NCBI RefSeq assembly: GCF_005796105.1
Contig: NZ_VAUO01000001.1
Span: 992,001-1,056,000, forward strand
From: Pseudomonas mosselii
Lineage (GTDB): Bacteria; Pseudomonadota; Gammaproteobacteria; Pseudomonadales; Pseudomonadaceae
Reading direction: 5' to 3'
Length of the DNA: 64,000 nt
Shown in pieces: positions 641 to 11,231 of this stretch. The notes beneath the pieces are model-generated. The model did not search any database, was not told the origin of the DNA, and was given only the letters and a program-made list of their open reading frames with translations. The position numbers and the translations under genes are program-made. How positions within the stretch are numbered: position 1 is the stretch's first letter; every line of letters begins with the position of its first letter.

Positions 641-2962
<2,322 letters not shown>

Positions 2963-3172
2963 TCAGGACAGCGCTGGCTGGGTCTTGCACCCAGGTGCTC
3001 AAGCGCCAGACGCATCGGCATTTCACGGGGCCACGGAAAAGACTAGCCGAGCTTGGCCAGAGGTCTAATAGAGCCGCTATTGAGTGCCGATAGCCTGCGC
3101 ACATCGGTACAAGCCAGGCGCGGCCGATCTGTGCTTGAATCGAGAGTCTTACTCCGTCCAAGGCCCCTGTGC

Positions 3173-5045: not shown

Positions 5046-6212
5046 ATGACAAGCGCTTCAGCCACCCCCACCCTGCTTACCCAGCGCCTGCAGAGCATCG
5101 ACGCCCTGCGTGGCCTGGTGATCCTGTTCATGCTGCTCGACCACGTACGTGAGACCTTCTTCCTGCATCGCCAGGTCAACGACCCGATGAACGTCGACAT
5201 CACCGAACCCAGCCTGTTCGCCAGCCGCACCCTGGCACACCTGTGCGCGCCGGTGTTCGTGCTGCTGACCGGCCTGTCGGCATGGCTGTATGGCGAGAAG
5301 CACCAAGGCCGGGGCGATGTCTCGGCGTTCCTGTTCAAGCGCGGGCTGTTCCTAGTGGCGCTGGAGTTCACCCTGGTGAATTTCGCCTGGACCTTCCAAC
5401 TGCCACCCAGCGTGATCTACATGCAGGTGATCTGGGCCATCGGCGTGAGCATGATCGCCCTGTCACTGCTGGTGTGGCTGCCGCGTGCGGCGCTGGTGCT
5501 GCTGGGGGTCGCGATTGTCGCTGGGCATAACCTGCTCGATGGCCTGCACTTTGGCCCGGACTCGGCAATGCACGTGCCGTGGGCCATCCTGCATGACCGC
5601 GGCTGGCTGGAGGTATCCGACAGCCTGCGCCTACGCACTTCTTATCCGGTACTGCCGTGGATCGGGGTGATCACACTCGGTTATGCCCTGGGGCCGTGGT
5701 TCGGCCGCAACAGCCAGGCCTGCGTGCGTCAACGGCGCCTGCTGCTGGTCGGGGCTGGCGCGCTGTTGGGCTTTGCGGTGCTGCGTGCGTTCAATGGCTA
5801 TGGTGAAGCGCCATGGCACAGCTACCCGTCATTCACCCAGACCCTGATGAGCGTGTTCAACGTCACCAAGTACCCACCTTCGCTGCTGTTCCTGAGCCTG
5901 ACTCTGGGCTGCGGCCTGCTGTTGCTACGCGGCTTCGAGCGTGCAGGCACTGCACGCTGGATTGGCGTGCTGGCGGTATTCGGCGCCGCGCCGATGTTCT
6001 TCTACCTGCTGCACCTGTATGAGCTGAAGGTACTGTACGTGGCCTGCGTGGCACTGTTCGGGCTCAACCAAGGCGAGTACTTCGGCTTCAACGGCATCGC
6101 GGCGGTATGGCTCGCAGCAGTGCTGCTGGCCATCGCGCTGTACCTGCCGGTGCGCGCATTCGCCCGCCTGAAAGCCCGGCGCCGCGATATTGCCTGGCTC
6201 AAGTACCTTTGA
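5046..6212 (+). CDS. DUF1624 / HGSNAT-like multi-pass membrane protein
   Basis: 388 residues. The N-terminus has the DUF1624 signature: RLQSIDALRGLVILFMLLDHVRE (positions 13-35), with the paired Asp and the Arg-Gly seen in heparan-alpha-glucosaminide N-acetyltransferase-like and YeiB-like proteins. About ten hydrophobic segments follow (for example FLVALEFTLVNFAW, VIYMQVIWAIGVSMIALSLL). The family is linked to membrane-embedded acyl transfer, but no bacterial substrate can be named here. No strong Shine-Dalgarno sequence is visible. The Zur-like palindrome upstream would make it zinc-responsive if real; that is an inference. Confidence 0.8.
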   Translation: MTSASATPTLLTQRLQSIDALRGLVILFMLLDHVRETFFLHRQVNDPMNVDITEPSLFASRTLAHLCAPVFVLLTGLSAWLYGEKHQGRGDVSAFLFKRGLFLVALEFTLVNFAWTFQLPPSVIYMQVIWAIGVSMIALSLLVWLPRAALVLLGVAIVAGHNLLDGLHFGPDSAMHVPWAILHDRGWLEVSDSLRLRTSYPVLPWIGVITLGYALGPWFGRNSQACVRQRRLLLVGAGALLGFAVLRAFNGYGEAPWHSYPSFTQTLMSVFNVTKYPPSLLFLSLTLGCGLLLLRGFERAGTARWIGVLAVFGAAPMFFYLLHLYELKVLYVACVALFGLNQGEYFGFNGIAAVWLAAVLLAIALYLPVRAFARLKARRRDIAWLKYL

Positions 6213-6306: not shown

Positions 6307-6323
6307 GGGGTCTACCATGCCCG

Positions 6324-6513
6324 CCGCCGGTTTCCACACGGAATTAATAGGGAACTCCCGGGCCGCCCAGTGCGTGCCCAAGGGAACTGCCCCCGCAACT
6401 GTAGGTGCCGAGCCCGTGCCATCGATGCCACTGGAGACTCATCCGGGAAGGCTGGCGCAGGGCCTGGACGCACCAGTCAGGAGACCTGCCGGCATACATT
6501 CACCAACCGGCGG
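6324..6513 (+). promoter_or_regulatory. Cobalamin riboswitch (B12 aptamer)
   Basis: The conserved elements occur in order: AATTAATAGGGAA, the core GGGAACTGCCCCCGCAACTG (6382-6401), GCCACTGG (6427-6434), CCGGGAAGGC (6443-6452) and the terminal GTCAGGAGACCTGCC (B12 box, 6476-6490). The outer stem is perfect over nine pairs: CCGCCGGTT (6324-6332) with AACCGGCGG (6505-6513). It lies 120 bases before the binding-protein gene with no other gene between, so it should repress the following operon when adenosylcobalamin is plentiful. Confidence 0.95.
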
Positions 6514-6529
6514 GGTGTCCGGGATGGTC

Positions 6530-6624
6530 ATCTCCCCCCCTTGCGGGTGCTGCCTGTCGACCTGTGCGCCAGGCCCGGCGATGCCTGTCCGTGCGCTCAT
6601 TCCGTGCACCGTTCGATAGGAGAT
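6530..6624 (+). promoter_or_regulatory. Possible riboswitch expression platform (anti-SD / SD)
   Basis: ATCTCC at 6530-6535, just after the aptamer, is fully complementary to the Shine-Dalgarno GGAGAT at 6619-6624 that serves the ATG at 6634. No GC hairpin with a U-run lies between them. This suggests control by hiding the ribosome site rather than by termination. The pairing is read by eye and has not been folded. Confidence 0.35.
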
Positions 6625-6633
6625 CGCCCGACC

Positions 6634-7647
6634 ATGCTGCCCCGTTTAGCCACCCTGCTCGCCAGCCTTTCGCTGGCAAGCGTCGCTCAGGCCGCGGCCA
6701 CTCAATACCCGCTCAGCGTCGACAACTGCGGCCTCGTGCAGACCTTCACCCAAGCGCCCGAGCGTGCGGTGACCATCGGCCAGGCCGGCACCGAAATACT
6801 CTACGCACTGGGCCTGGGCGACAAGCTGGCCGGCACTTCGCTGTGGTTCAACAACGTGCTGCCCGAGTTCGCCGCGCAGAATGCCAAGGTGCCACGTCTG
6901 GCCGACAACGATCCTAGCTTCGAGGCGGTAGTGGGCAAACGCCCGCAGTTAGTGACAGTGCAGTTCGAATGGATGGTCGGCGCCCAGGGCGTGGTGGCGA
7001 CCCGCGAGCAGTTCAGCGAGCTGAAGATCCCGACCTATCTGCTGCCCAGCGACTGCGAGGGCAAGGACAACCTGGTGGGCGCCGACGGCACCCGCCTGCA
7101 GCCGTTCCAGGTCGACACCCTCTACAAGAGCGTTAGCCAGCTGGCCGAGATCTTCGATGTACAAGACCGCGGCGATGCGCTCAATGCCACGCTCAAGGGC
7201 CAGTTGGCCCACGCACAGCAGCAACTGGCCGGCAAGGACCTGTCCGGCACCAGCGCGCTGTTCTGGTTCTCCAGCGCCGACCTTGAGATGGACCCGTACG
7301 TGGCCGGTCGCCAGGGCGTGGCCGACTTCATGCTACAGACCCTGGGCGTGCGCAACGTTGTCGAGTCCAACGAAGAATGGCCGACCGTAGGCTGGGAAAC
7401 CTTGGTAAAGGCCAACCCGACCTGGGTGATCATCGCCCGCATGGACCGCCGCCGCTTCCCCGCCGACGACTACCAGAAGAAGCTCGACTTCCTGCGTAAC
7501 GACCCGGTGGCCAAGCACATGGACGCGGTCAAGCACGGCCGGGTGATCGTGCTCGACGCCGACGCCATGCAGGCCGGCATTCGCCTGTTCCGTGGCCTGG
7601 AGCGTTTGTCCGACGCTTTTGCCAGTGGTAAAGCCCCGCAATCATGA
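6634..7647 (+). CDS. Periplasmic substrate-binding protein of a B12-controlled ABC importer
   Basis: 337 residues from the ATG at 6634, which follows AGGAG with good spacing; upstream in-frame sequence overlaps the riboswitch and is not coding. Residues 1-20 are a cleavable signal peptide ending in AQA, without a lipobox. The body is a class III (BtuF/FhuD-like) binding protein: PERAVTIGQAGTEILYALGLGDKLAGTS near the N-terminus and a long linking helix near residues 165-200. Members bind cobalamin, haem, siderophores or metal complexes. The B12 riboswitch points to cobalt or a corrinoid. Its stop overlaps the permease start (ATGA), so the two are translationally coupled. Confidence 0.85.
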   Translation: MLPRLATLLASLSLASVAQAAATQYPLSVDNCGLVQTFTQAPERAVTIGQAGTEILYALGLGDKLAGTSLWFNNVLPEFAAQNAKVPRLADNDPSFEAVVGKRPQLVTVQFEWMVGAQGVVATREQFSELKIPTYLLPSDCEGKDNLVGADGTRLQPFQVDTLYKSVSQLAEIFDVQDRGDALNATLKGQLAHAQQQLAGKDLSGTSALFWFSSADLEMDPYVAGRQGVADFMLQTLGVRNVVESNEEWPTVGWETLVKANPTWVIIARMDRRRFPADDYQKKLDFLRNDPVAKHMDAVKHGRVIVLDADAMQAGIRLFRGLERLSDAFASGKAPQS

Positions 7648-8660
7648 ACCGTTTGCTACCCCTGAGCCTCGCGACCCTGATCGCCCTGCTAATGGCCCTG
7701 CTGGCCGGTATCGCCATCGGTGAAACCCGCCTGGGCGCCGAGCTTGTGTGGCAGGTGCTGGGCAACCACCTGTGGCAAGCCGGGCATGTGCTCGACCCGA
7801 TCGACGCCGGCATCGTGTGGAACTACCGCCTGCCGCGCACCCTGGTGGCGGCGGCCTGTGGCGCAGGCCTGGCCACCTGCGGGGTGATCCTCCAGGCGCT
7901 GTTGCGCAACCCATTGGCCGAGCCGTACCTGCTGGGGCTGTCGGCCGGTGCCTCCACCGGCGCTGTTGCAGTGGGCCTGCTGGGTTTGGGCGGCGCGGCA
8001 TTATCGCTGTCCGGCGGCGCGTTCATCGGCGCCCTGGTGGCGTTCGGCCTGGTACTGGTGCTGGCGCGTGCCAGCGGCAGCAGCCAGAACAACGCCCAAG
8101 TGATCCTTGCGGGGATCGCCGGCTCGCAGTTGTTCACCGCGCTCACGGCGTTCCTGATCACCAAGTCGGCCACCGCCGAGCAGGCGCGCGGCATCATGTT
8201 CTGGCTGTTGGGTAACCTCAGCGGCGTGCGCTGGCCGTCGGTGTGGCAGGCGCTGCCGGTGGCCTTGCTGGGGCTGGGCGTTTGCCTGTGGCATCGGCGA
8301 GCACTGGACGCCTTCACCTTTGGCGCCGATTCGGCCGCCTCGCTGGGGGTACCGGTGCGCCGTACGCAGTTACTGTTGATCAGTTGCGCAGCGCTAGTCA
8401 CCGCTGTGATGGTCTCGATCGTCGGCGCCATCGGCTTCGTGGGGTTGGTGATTCCGCATGCCCTGCGCCTGCTGCTGGGCACCGGCCACAGCCGCCTGTT
8501 ACCCGCCAGTGCGCTCGGCGGCGCACTGTTCCTGATCCTCGCCGACATTCTCTCGCGCACCCTGATCACCGGCCAGGTGATCCCGGTGGGCGTGGTCACC
8601 GCGCTGATCGGTGCGCCAGTGTTCGCGCTGATCCTGATCAGCCGCCGGGGGCGCCCATGA
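7644..8660 (+). CDS. FecCD-family ABC permease
   Basis: 338 residues with about nine to ten membrane helices. It carries FecCD/BtuC hallmarks: RLPRTLVAAACGAGLATCGVILQALLRNPLAEPYLLGLSAGAS-type N-terminal motifs and the C-terminal GAIGFVGLVIPHALRLLLGTGH loop that contacts the ATPase. It overlaps the binding-protein gene at its start and the ATPase gene at its end by ATGA. It forms the inner-membrane channel of the riboswitch-controlled importer. Confidence 0.93.
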   Translation: MNRLLPLSLATLIALLMALLAGIAIGETRLGAELVWQVLGNHLWQAGHVLDPIDAGIVWNYRLPRTLVAAACGAGLATCGVILQALLRNPLAEPYLLGLSAGASTGAVAVGLLGLGGAALSLSGGAFIGALVAFGLVLVLARASGSSQNNAQVILAGIAGSQLFTALTAFLITKSATAEQARGIMFWLLGNLSGVRWPSVWQALPVALLGLGVCLWHRRALDAFTFGADSAASLGVPVRRTQLLLISCAALVTAVMVSIVGAIGFVGLVIPHALRLLLGTGHSRLLPASALGGALFLILADILSRTLITGQVIPVGVVTALIGAPVFALILISRRGRP

Positions 8661-9445
8661 CCGCCATGAACCTCTGCGCGCAGGCCCCGTTGAGCTGCCA
8701 AGGCCTCAGCCTGCGTCTGGCCGGCCGCGACGTGCTGCGGGGTATCGACCTCAGCGTGAACCCCGGTGAAACCTTGGGCCTGGTCGGCCCCAACGGCTCG
8801 GGCAAGTCGACTCTGCTCAAGCTGCTCGCCGGCCTGCGAGCGCCCAGCAGCGGCAGCGTACAGTTGCTCGGCGAGTCGCTGGCGAAGCTCCCGCGTCGGC
8901 GCATCGCCCAGTGCCTGGCGCTGGTCGAGCAGCAGGCCGATACCCTCGACAGCATCAGCGTGTTCGACGCCGTAGCCTTGGGCCGAACCCCGTGGCTGTC
9001 AGCCCTGACACCGTTCGGCAAGGCGGACCGAATCATCGTCGAACAGGCCTTGGCCGATGTCGACGCCACTCATTTGGCCGCGCGGCTATGGCGCGAGTTG
9101 TCCGGTGGCGAGCGCCAACGCGTGCACATCGCCCGCGCCCTGGCCCAACGCCCGCAGTTGTTGCTGCTGGACGAGCCAACCAACCACCTGGATATCCAGC
9201 ACCAGTTGAGCCTGCTGCAGCAGGTGCAGGCCTTGCCAGTGACTACCGTGGTAGCCCTGCACGACCTCAACCAGGCTCTCACCTGTGATCGCCTGGCTGT
9301 GCTCGACCAGGGCCGTCTGGTCGCCCTCGGCGCCCCCGAAGCGGTGCTCACGCCCGAATGCTTGCTGCGTACCTTCGGCGTGCACGCCCACTACCTCACC
9401 GACCCTTACGATGGCGCGCGCATCCTGCGCTTTCGCGCCCCCTGA
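8657..9445 (+). CDS. ABC transporter ATPase (BtuD/FecE type)
   Basis: 262 residues from the ATG at 8657, which overlaps the permease stop; the frame is open upstream but that part is antisense-like noise within the permease. Walker A is GPNGSGKST (44-52), the signature is LSGGERQR, Walker B is LLLLDEPTN, and the switch His lies in VVALHDLNQAL. This composition is typical of the iron-siderophore/B12 importer ATPases. It supplies energy to the importer encoded by the two preceding genes. Confidence 0.93.
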   Translation: MTAMNLCAQAPLSCQGLSLRLAGRDVLRGIDLSVNPGETLGLVGPNGSGKSTLLKLLAGLRAPSSGSVQLLGESLAKLPRRRIAQCLALVEQQADTLDSISVFDAVALGRTPWLSALTPFGKADRIIVEQALADVDATHLAARLWRELSGGERQRVHIARALAQRPQLLLLDEPTNHLDIQHQLSLLQQVQALPVTTVVALHDLNQALTCDRLAVLDQGRLVALGAPEAVLTPECLLRTFGVHAHYLTDPYDGARILRFRAP

Positions 9446-9462
9446 ACCAGGACGTTCCGCCC

Positions 9463-9897
9463 ATGCTGCCCCGCACCGCCGCCCTGCTGCTCGCCACGTT
9501 GCTGGCCACCCCCGTCGCCTACGCTGAGGTGCATGAGGTGAAGATGCTCAACCGTGGCGCCGATGGCGCCATGCTCTATGAGCCTGATCACCTGCACATT
9601 GCCCAAGGCGACACGGTGCGTTTCCTGCCAACCCAGGCCGGGCACAACGCCGCCAGCCTGCCTGAGTTACTCCCGGCCGGGGCCCGCGCGTTCAAGAGCA
9701 AGCTCAACCAAACCTTCGAGCACACCTTCGACGTCCCTGGTTTGTACGGCATCCAGTGCATCCCGCACCTGGCCATGGGCATGGTGATGCTGATTCAGGT
9801 CGGCGAGCGCAGCCACACGGCCCTGCCCGACACCCTTCCGGCCCGCGCCAAGGCACGTCTGGCGGCGCAGCTGCAACAACTGGAGGCCGGCCAATGA
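9463..9897 (+). CDS. Pseudoazurin-family blue copper protein
   Basis: 144 residues from the ATG at 9463, behind AGGA; the signal peptide is residues 1-21, ending in AYA. The fold signature matches pseudoazurin: EVKMLNRGADGAMLYEPDHL, GDTVRFLPTQAGHN, then CIPHLAMGM. All four type-1 copper ligands are visible: His61, Cys99, His102 and Met107, with the C-x2-H-x4-M spacing of pseudoazurin. It should be a periplasmic one-electron carrier. No nitrite reductase or other usual partner is near; instead it sits inside a B12-riboswitch operon between an importer ATPase and a porin. Confidence 0.88.
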   Translation: MLPRTAALLLATLLATPVAYAEVHEVKMLNRGADGAMLYEPDHLHIAQGDTVRFLPTQAGHNAASLPELLPAGARAFKSKLNQTFEHTFDVPGLYGIQCIPHLAMGMVMLIQVGERSHTALPDTLPARAKARLAAQLQQLEAGQ

Positions 9898-11231
9898 CGC
9901 GCCTGTTCATCGCCCTGCCCTTGCTTGGACTGAGCCCGCTGGCGCTGGCCGAATCTGCGCAATCCCAGGCCAATGGTTTTATCGAGGACAGCACCTGGGG
10001 CCTGCTCAACCGTATGCTCTTCGATCAGCGCGACTACCGCCACGGCGGGCGCAACAGCGGCGCCCGCAACGCCTACAAGCCGCGCAGCGAGCGCAATGGC
10101 ATGGCCGAAGAATGGGGCTACGGCCTGATGGGCACGTTCAGCTCGGGCTTCACCCAAGGCCTGGTCGGCGTCGGTGTCGATGCCCACGCCTACCTGGGGG
10201 GCAAGCTCGACAGCGGCGGCGGCCGCGCTGGCAAGGCCCGGCTGCTGAGCCTGGACAACCAAGGCCACCCCAAGGACGACTACAGTCGTGGCGGCGCAGC
10301 GGTGAAGTTGCGCGTGTCCAACACCGTGCTGTCGTATGGCGAGCAACGGGTCAAGACCCCGGTGTTCAGTTCCTCCGACAGCCGCCTGCTGCCCGAGACC
10401 TTCACCGGCTGGTTCCTCACTAGCAGCGAAATCGACACGCTCAAGCTAGTGGCTGGCCACTTCACCGAGAACGCCGACCGTAACGCCTCGAGCCACGACC
10501 AGGGCTTCGTGGTGAACTACTCCAACGGCCGCCAGGGCACTGCCTTCGACCTGGCCGGCGCGGTGTGGAACCCCAGCGCGAACGTCAGTTCCAGCCTGTA
10601 CACCTCGCGCTATGCAGACACCTGGAACCAGCACTACCTGGGCAGCACCCTGAGCCACGCCATCGATGCACAGCGCAGCCTCAGCCTCGACTTGAACCTG
10701 TACCGCACCACCGACACCGGCAAGGCTTTGTCCGGGCGCATCGACAACACCACCTGGAGCCTGGTCGGCCGCTACGCCCAAGGGCCCCACGCCTTCAGCC
10801 TGGGCTGGCAGCAGGTGGATGGCAACACACCGTTCGACTACGTCAGCCGCGGTGCGATCTATATCGCCAACGCCGTGCAGATGTCCGACTTCAATGCGCC
10901 GAACGAGAAGTCGTGGCAGGCGCGCTATGACCTGAACATGGGTGCATATGGCATCCCGGGGTTGAACCTGACGGCGCTGTACGTGCGCGGCTTCGCTATC
11001 GACGGCAGCCACGTCGACCCTAAAGGTGGGTACGCGTACCTGGGCTACGGGAAGGATGGCAAGCACTGGGAGCGCGACCTTGAAGCACGCTACGTGGTGC
11101 AGGCCGGCAAGGCCAAGGGGTTGGCGTTTTCGCTCAGGCACAACGTACACCGTGGGGATACGGCGCAGGCCGAGCTGGATGGCGATCAGATCAGACTAGC
11201 GGTGGAGTATCCGCTTACCGGTGGGCTCTAA
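9894..11231 (+). CDS. OprD-family outer-membrane porin
   Basis: 445 residues from the ATG at 9894, overlapping the pseudoazurin stop by ATGA; the signal peptide is residues 1-19, ending in ALA. The N-terminus GFIEDSTWGLLNRMLFDQRDYR and the long 16-18-stranded barrel pattern are those of the OprD/OccD-OccK group, and the length is normal. Such porins pass small charged solutes without TonB. As last gene of the riboswitch operon it is the likely outer-membrane entry for the importer, which would favour a small ligand such as a chelated metal over intact cobalamin. Confidence 0.88.
   Translation: MTRLFIALPLLGLSPLALAESAQSQANGFIEDSTWGLLNRMLFDQRDYRHGGRNSGARNAYKPRSERNGMAEEWGYGLMGTFSSGFTQGLVGVGVDAHAYLGGKLDSGGGRAGKARLLSLDNQGHPKDDYSRGGAAVKLRVSNTVLSYGEQRVKTPVFSSSDSRLLPETFTGWFLTSSEIDTLKLVAGHFTENADRNASSHDQGFVVNYSNGRQGTAFDLAGAVWNPSANVSSSLYTSRYADTWNQHYLGSTLSHAIDAQRSLSLDLNLYRTTDTGKALSGRIDNTTWSLVGRYAQGPHAFSLGWQQVDGNTPFDYVSRGAIYIANAVQMSDFNAPNEKSWQARYDLNMGAYGIPGLNLTALYVRGFAIDGSHVDPKGGYAYLGYGKDGKHWERDLEARYVVQAGKAKGLAFSLRHNVHRGDTAQAELDGDQIRLAVEYPLTGGL

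Follow-up and report, generated by a model that had tools for sequence, protein, structure and literature searches.

We analyzed a five-gene operon under a cobalamin riboswitch in a 64,000-nucleotide stretch of Pseudomonas mosselii DNA (assembly GCF_005796105.1, contig NZ_VAUO01000001.1, positions 992,001 to 1,056,000, forward strand; hereafter the window, with positions counted from its first letter). The operon joins an ATP-binding cassette (ABC) importer to a pseudoazurin, which is a blue copper protein, and to a porin of the OprD family. Its riboswitch aptamer is a full-length match to RF00174 (E 3.6e-21, gathering score 31.5) and the sole Rfam match at the gathering threshold within the window. 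The features are the following, with stop codons included in the gene coordinates:

6311-6507, plus strand: cobalamin riboswitch aptamer (RF00174), 90.8 bits, model positions 1-189 of 189
6508-6633, plus strand: leader between the aptamer and the first gene
6634-7647, plus strand: periplasmic binding protein, predicted CbtJ-type (Peripla_BP_2, Pfam cut-off passed)
7644-8660, plus strand: FecCD-type permease, predicted CbtK-type (Pfam FecCD cut-off passed)
8657-9445, plus strand: ABC ATPase, predicted CbtL-type (Pfam ABC_tran cut-off passed)
9463-9897, plus strand: pseudoazurin of the importer-linked group (Pfam Copper-bind and TIGR02375 cut-offs passed)
9894-11231, plus strand: OprD-family porin (PF03573, 457.6 bits against a cut-off of 25)
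5046-6212, plus strand: membrane protein (HGSNAT_cat), the neighbor upstream of the operon

An earlier note on this DNA, made from the sequence alone, had described a full cobalamin riboswitch followed by five genes of these families that overlap by ATGA or lie within 20 bp of each other, a pseudoazurin with all four copper ligands, and no TonB receptor. The analysis bears out this description. The aptamer starts 13 bases before position 6324, where the note had placed it, all five proteins exceed the cut-offs of their Pfam families, and the gene junctions consist of ATGA overlaps at 7644, 8657, and 9894 and a single 17-base gap. The pseudoazurin scores 119.2 bits against the NCBIfam model TIGR02375 (cut-off 109.85), and its residues H61, C99, H102, and M107 align with those that we take to be the copper ligands of solved pseudoazurins (E about 1e-32). 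The nearest solved relative of the porin is OprD (343 bits), followed by OpdC (265 bits). The operon has no TonB receptor, and the window genome holds no close relative of the receptor that accompanies the importer in other genomes (best-scoring match, 27% identity). On the plus strand of the leader, we found no terminator-like site, and the leader folds no better than its shuffled versions (z -0.68).

Identity of the importer and its cargo

To place the importer among known systems, we compared its proteins with NCBIfam models, and the following models missed their cut-offs. The binding protein scores 23.2 bits against the BtuF model (cut-off 234), 29.7 bits against the haem model IsdE (298.65), and 282 bits against the EitA model (640), and the EitC model gives 256.1 bits (485). 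The best models for the permease and the ATPase are those of a putative F420-0 ABC transporter, and all three window proteins lie below the cut-offs of this set (TIGR03868, 169.7 bits of 392.4 for the binding protein; TIGR03869, 300 of 437.35; TIGR03873, 282.3 of 372.4). Membership of the Eit and F420-0 families was ruled out on these scores. EitABCD, a siderophore-type system from an E. coli plasmid, has the same gene order as the window importer, but a true EitA relative (L196) passes the EitA model (688.6 against 640 bits), and the Eit-side loci (L195-L197), unlike the window, have no riboswitch by Rfam and lie in genomes without CobI over cut-off. An AlphaFold2 model of the window binding protein (mean pLDDT 91.9) is closest to structure 4mlz from Jonesia denitrificans, whose ligand is unstated, and BtuF is absent among the 50 structural matches listed.

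A match to the importer was found on pSymB of Sinorhizobium meliloti 1021. This replicon carries two RF00174 sites, one before a CbiM gene and the other, at 66246, before an ABC trio whose binding protein, permease, and ATPase are 50, 66, and 54% identical to those of the window and stand in the same order. Like its window counterpart, the S. meliloti binding protein stays below the cut-offs of EitA (336.8 bits), F420-0 (182.7), and BtuF (26.5). According to the accessible part of PMC7689651, CbtJKL is encoded on pSymB under an adenosylcobalamin riboswitch and imports Co(II), and a CbtJKL knock-out grew only with 1-10 uM CoCl2. The database record of pSymB carries no annotation, and we deduce that the locus at 66246 is the published cbtJKL because it is the only one of the two riboswitch loci that fits this description. 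Given this deduction, an orthologous trio in the same order behind RF00174, and co-occurrence with de novo corrin synthesis, the window importer is by sequence a CbtJKL-type system, and hence a known kind rather than a new one. The S. meliloti locus differs in what follows the importer: the next gene encodes an S-adenosylmethionine (SAM) methyltransferase, and neither a pseudoazurin nor an OprD lies within the 9.5 kb examined.

The surroundings of related importers point to cobalamin synthesis. Six importers without a pseudoazurin adjoin cob genes: one lies directly before a riboswitch-CobW-CobN-ChlI set (L069), two are followed after the ATPase by CobF (L072 and L073; 313 bits, cut-off 195.8), two run divergently from genes related to CobW and CobB of the window genome and from a ChlI/ChlD-like protein named by eye (L180 and L182), and one lies 2.1 kb behind a CobI over cut-off (L189). 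CobI, a corrin-synthesis methylase, is over cut-off in 55 of the 61 genomes tested, including 35 of the 36 that carry the pseudoazurin module (counting those of the window, L102, and L176). Apart from the one module-bearing exception, which is taken up below, the misses are four genomes (G314, G435, G508, and G412; loci L195, L196, L197, and L193) whose importers lack any riboswitch by Rfam, and a fifth (G079; L074) with two partial CobI matches and without a detected riboswitch. Of 398 Pseudomonadota drawn evenly, 152 have a CobI that exceeds its cut-off and 26 have the binding protein (E <= 1e-40); the two occur together in 22 of the 26 (Fisher p 7e-7, with species not independent).

Riboswitches were counted across loci with a sequence pattern, which also matches inside genes and was accepted only 100-600 bases before the binding protein. 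The pattern misses variants, namely RF01482 in L072 and L073 and a short RF00174 that Rfam found in L189, and these loci are labeled as lacking a riboswitch in the tree below; for L182, pattern and Rfam agree. In the two Pseudomonas loci L072 and L073, whose importers are 43-45% identical, the adenosylcobalamin-type RF01482 stands directly before the binding protein in place of RF00174 (L072:10012-10151, minus strand; L073:5852-5936, plus strand; 52 bits against a gathering score of 50), a change of riboswitch class before the same kind of gene. All 11 importers of L178-L188, which have no pseudoazurin and are 46-55% identical, have RF00174, just upstream on the importer strand in 10 and on the opposite strand, facing the cob genes, in L180.

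Because of the orthology with S. meliloti CbtJKL, the failed BtuF, Eit, haem, and F420-0 models, the cob-gene neighbors, and the co-occurrence with CobI, we consider the cargo very likely to be cobalt. Across 84 binding proteins from the riboswitch-bearing part of the tree, C32, C141, E54, E97, E248, E255, M270, and D278 are fixed, and no histidine is conserved at 90% or above. This lack of a conserved histidine favors a cobalt complex over the bare ion, so that the imported form is probably a small complex. A BtuFCD-like system taking up B12 or a corrinoid fragment would likewise explain the cobalamin riboswitch and the FecCD permease, for which the BtuC models rank next behind F420-0. However, the BtuF score, by which we ruled out a corrinoid cargo, the missing BtuF among the structural matches, the company of corrin synthesis, and the orthology with the S. 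meliloti locus all make such an importer very improbable. The earlier note had proposed either a small cobalt species or a corrinoid fragment as cargo, and had asked how the binding protein compares with BtuF, haem, and cobalt binders. Only the first cargo is supported: the protein falls below the BtuF, haem, and EitA cut-offs and is orthologous to that of a cobalt importer, and CobI is present in nearly all module genomes.

The note had also known of no described system with this gene set, which does not hold for the ABC part, since the CbtJKL type has been described in S. meliloti (PMC7689651, accessible part). The pseudoazurin partner, in contrast, appears to be a new and undescribed part. 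The literature searched offered no link of pseudoazurin with a cobalamin riboswitch or with cobalt uptake, which is weak evidence of absence given that subscription papers were mostly outside its scope, and papers joining pseudoazurin, cobalamin, and ABC transporters concerned Paracoccus denitrification and Haloferax copper genes rather than this operon.

The host strain probably makes B12 itself. Its genome carries CobI, CobN, CobW, and CbtAB, and has four RF00174 sites in total, the other three of which precede cobW-cobN-ChlI, cbtB-cbtA with corrin genes, and CobO-CobB-type genes. CbtAB is probably a second, predicted cobalt route. The other FecCD permeases of the genome with a near-full-length match belong to haem-like, unassigned, and siderophore-like clusters, as judged by eye from gene order.

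The importer-linked pseudoazurin

To follow the pseudoazurin beyond the window, we used an initial sample of 144 genomes, the window's included, of which 89 belong to its genus. Pseudoazurin occurs in eight genomes of the genus, after a complete importer in six, after the binding protein alone in G009, and at a locus with a contig break inside the permease in G075; six genomes from other families hold a more distant match. When 84,980 species genomes were scanned with an alignment of the eight genus pseudoazurins, 78 loci were obtained. We found the order binding protein, permease, ATPase, and pseudoazurin in 61 of them, with a riboswitch 100-600 bases upstream by pattern in 60 of the 61. Since the scan was seeded with importer-linked motifs, these counts do not measure the linked share among all pseudoazurins. 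The full modules are spread over alpha-, beta-, and gammaproteobacteria: 43 are from Pseudomonas (one labeled Pantoea), and the 18 others include Paracoccus, Pseudoroseomonas, Roseovarius, Microvirga, Afifella, Falsigemmobacter, Pseudovibrio, Pseudaminobacter (with a pseudoazurin fragment), Lautropia, Lampropedia, and Wohlfahrtiimonas. Among the remaining 17 loci, L102 has no permease and ATPase, L129 is cut by a contig end, L145 begins at the edge of a contig, and no importer is nearby in the other 14, of which three are no more than 1.4 kb away from a contig edge. Of 11 importer loci checked with Rfam, 10 proved to have the riboswitch, against none of nine loci without an importer. The pseudoazurin is thus tied to the importer, as the earlier note had it, and the five-gene order for which it had suggested a search recurs as a four-gene module, to which OprD is added as fifth partner in 36 of the 61.

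Each of the 63 importer-linked pseudoazurins retains the four copper ligands. In a quick, midpoint-rooted tree of 95 pseudoazurins (129 columns), all 63 fall into one group of 65 with a support of 87, or 95 when L153 is omitted, together with two non-linked members, L145 at its contig edge and L143. A tree holding the 63 together as one clade is not rejected against the free tree (p 0.204), which is no proof of a clade. In the genomes that host L141, L150, L155, and L158, additional pseudoazurins occur that do not belong to the linked group.

The surface of the linked proteins differs from that of their relatives. These residue counts leave out L176, a fragment that is also absent from the pseudoazurin tree and still counted in the 61 modules, and, on the non-linked side, L143 and L145. 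Near the ligand H61, D58, K59, and E64 are present in 26, 22, and 19 of 30 non-linked rows, a majority pattern rather than a strict definition, and in only 1, 2, and 0 of the 63 linked rows; the window pseudoazurin has Q, A, and A at these positions. Conversely, P122 marks 62 of 63 linked rows and none of 30 non-linked ones, E86 60 of 63 against 4 of 30, and L125 59 of 63 against 4 of 30. R132 is present in all 63 linked rows and also in 15 of 30 others, K78 is kept in 56 of 63, and position 98 is Q in 50 of 63 linked rows and K in 16 of 30 non-linked rows. K59 and K98 (38 and 77 in mature numbering) presumably belong to the nitrite-reductase docking patch. Respiratory pseudoazurins of the Paracoccus and Achromobacter type share the family and the copper ligands with the window protein, but lie outside the importer-linked group and differ at these surface positions. 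A role as donor to copper nitrite reductase is unlikely, as this enzyme is over cut-off in only one of eight pseudoazurin-bearing Pseudomonas genomes. The importer-linked pseudoazurin looks like a specialized paralogue with a changed surface and not like a denitrification protein, and the near-fixed positions P122 and E86 suggest a protein partner rather than a free sponge.

On a quick tree of 107 binding proteins, from which 19 near-duplicates (18 from Pseudomonas and one from Falsigemmobacter) and five duplicates were left out, the pseudoazurin label changes 10 times and the pattern-based riboswitch label five times. The simplest reading is that of an old riboswitch-controlled importer which the pseudoazurin joined later, with several losses in Pseudomonas. 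The module of L157, labeled Mesoflavibacter (Bacteroidota), groups with Roseovarius in both trees, and this genome is probably mislabeled. Behind the pseudoazurin, L138 has an extra binding-protein-like gene and L150 an apparent second FecCD-type ABC set.

Possible roles of the pseudoazurin in cobalt uptake

We propose, with a probability of roughly 0.6, that the operon encodes a B12-repressed CbtJKL-type cobalt importer served by a pseudoazurin of its own and, in this lineage, by an OprD encoded on the same transcript. At low adenosylcobalamin, the riboswitch would permit expression of the operon, which is the established behavior of RF00174. A small cobalt complex may then enter through OprD and be captured by the binding protein, probably still as a complex given the lack of a conserved histidine, after which the permease and the ATPase, by orthology with CbtJKL, would carry the cobalt inward for corrin synthesis. 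The pseudoazurin would act on the cobalt supply in the periplasm.

Several observations weigh against this proposal. Among the Pseudomonas orthologues of the importer (34 loci and the window), the riboswitch is kept in 33 of 35 (by pattern, with the two misses checked by Rfam), and the pseudoazurin is present in only eight; the earlier note had named relatives lacking either one as evidence against its view, and the relatives side with it on the riboswitch and against it on the pseudoazurin. With 27 of 35 Pseudomonas relatives and the S. meliloti locus doing without it, the pseudoazurin counts as an accessory rather than as part of the core system. In Pseudomonas putida GM4FR (L102, the same strain as L039; 5000-9800), the riboswitch, binding protein, pseudoazurin, and OprD are found without a permease and ATPase at the site. 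In Wohlfahrtiimonas (L153), all four genes are there, but both the riboswitch and CobI are missing. Finally, since CbtAB is under another riboswitch in the window genome, the CbtJKL-type importer need not be the only cobalt route of its host.

That the pseudoazurin takes part in cobalt uptake at all we consider likely; what it does there is a more tentative matter. Under oxic conditions, complexed cobalt tends toward the inert Co(III) state, and blue copper proteins carry single electrons. For these reasons, our first choice, a possible one that we hold with clearly less than even confidence, is that the pseudoazurin donates an electron to inert Co(III) complexes and so controls the redox state of periplasmic cobalt, with the resulting Co(II) being captured by the CbtJ-type protein. 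Almost as plausible, if somewhat unlikely when taken by itself, is the main alternative that the pseudoazurin removes periplasmic Cu(II), which would outcompete Co(II), and thereby keeps copper off the cobalt-binding protein or from being imported with cobalt. The retention of all four copper ligands while the surface positions changed fits such a sink, as does a suggestion, noted in the accessible part of PMC7689651, that the periplasm offers more available copper than the cytosol does. The near-fixed group positions suggest a partner instead, and the capacity of a sink would be limited by the number of protein molecules.

Two further explanations appear less probable. If the pseudoazurin were an ordinary respiratory electron carrier that is merely co-expressed when B12 is short, its frequent gain or loss on the binding-protein tree would be expected, and pseudoazurin is known to carry electrons in denitrification (PMC5987163, accessible part). 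Yet the near absence of copper nitrite reductase from the Pseudomonas genomes concerned, the additional pseudoazurins outside the linked group in four host genomes, and the near-complete disappearance of D58, K59, and E64 inside that group make this improbable. Still more doubtful is a relay in which Co(II) would be bound by the type-1 site and delivered from there to the binding protein. Co(II) can occupy blue copper sites in vitro, and the pseudoazurin gene stands behind the importer in a fixed order; however, by the Irving-Williams series copper would outcompete cobalt at such a site, and no sequence feature of the protein favors cobalt.

Outside the inner membrane, little is understood of how cells take up cobalt for B12. 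For the periplasm and the outer membrane, the operon and its relatives supply candidates, namely the pseudoazurin, OprD, and a riboswitch-controlled siderophore-type TonB receptor, next to an importer type of known physiology. In three bacterial classes, gene order and riboswitch also link a group of blue copper proteins to a metal importer. The pseudoazurin partner may reveal how scarce cobalt is handled before it reaches the inner membrane. If it does reduce Co(III), blue copper proteins would gain a role outside respiration and photosynthesis, and a reductive step would be added to bacterial cobalt uptake.

Outer-membrane partners and neighboring genes

OprD lies directly after the pseudoazurin in 29 of the 61 modules and behind a major facilitator superfamily (MFS) gene in seven more. 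All of these modules are from Pseudomonas except for one from Lampropedia, and OprD is mainly a Pseudomonas addition. In 12 of the 61 modules, we found a siderophore-type TonB receptor (TIGR01783) upstream, preceded by its own riboswitch by pattern in 11; the locus of the twelfth (L108) begins inside the receptor. The absence of a TonB receptor from the window operon is therefore a local feature, and the porin that the earlier note had seen as the outer-membrane partner is present in the window without being general. As both genes occur in these 12 full modules, we rejected the idea that TonB receptor and pseudoazurin exclude each other in Pseudomonas. The riboswitch-controlled siderophore-type receptor is a candidate receptor for the cobalt complex. 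In L036, L037, L038, L040, L041, and L043, a TonB receptor with its own cobalamin riboswitch by pattern lies about 4 kb upstream of the binding protein (TIGR01783 was scored for L036).

The Pseudomonas loci L075-L079 contain a second importer, 26-30% identical, in the order ATPase, binding protein, and permease. In L075, L076, L078, and L079, it comes after a TonB receptor of the same cluster, and in L078 and L079 this receptor is itself preceded by a riboswitch by pattern.

The HGSNAT_cat membrane protein is kept upstream in 25 of the 61 modules, and in some relatives its gene stands between the riboswitch-controlled TonB receptor and the importer operon. In 11 of the 61 modules (L124, L128, L130, L132, L136, L137, L138, L139, L142, L172, and L173), an MFS transporter gene comes after that of the pseudoazurin; these include the seven with OprD behind it. 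An MFS gene also follows the true EitA relative L196, and its product is 32% identical to the MFS transporter of the modules. In several alphaproteobacteria, namely L183, L154, L158, L159, and S. meliloti (L216:4053-4832, Methyltransf_11), the gene immediately behind the importer or the pseudoazurin encodes a SAM methyltransferase, possibly a further part of the cobalt system. Elsewhere in the window, a reading frame of 748 amino acids on the minus strand (641-2887) resembles catalase-peroxidase, as judged by eye, and a plus-strand open reading frame that overlaps it (644-3046) is probably its shadow.

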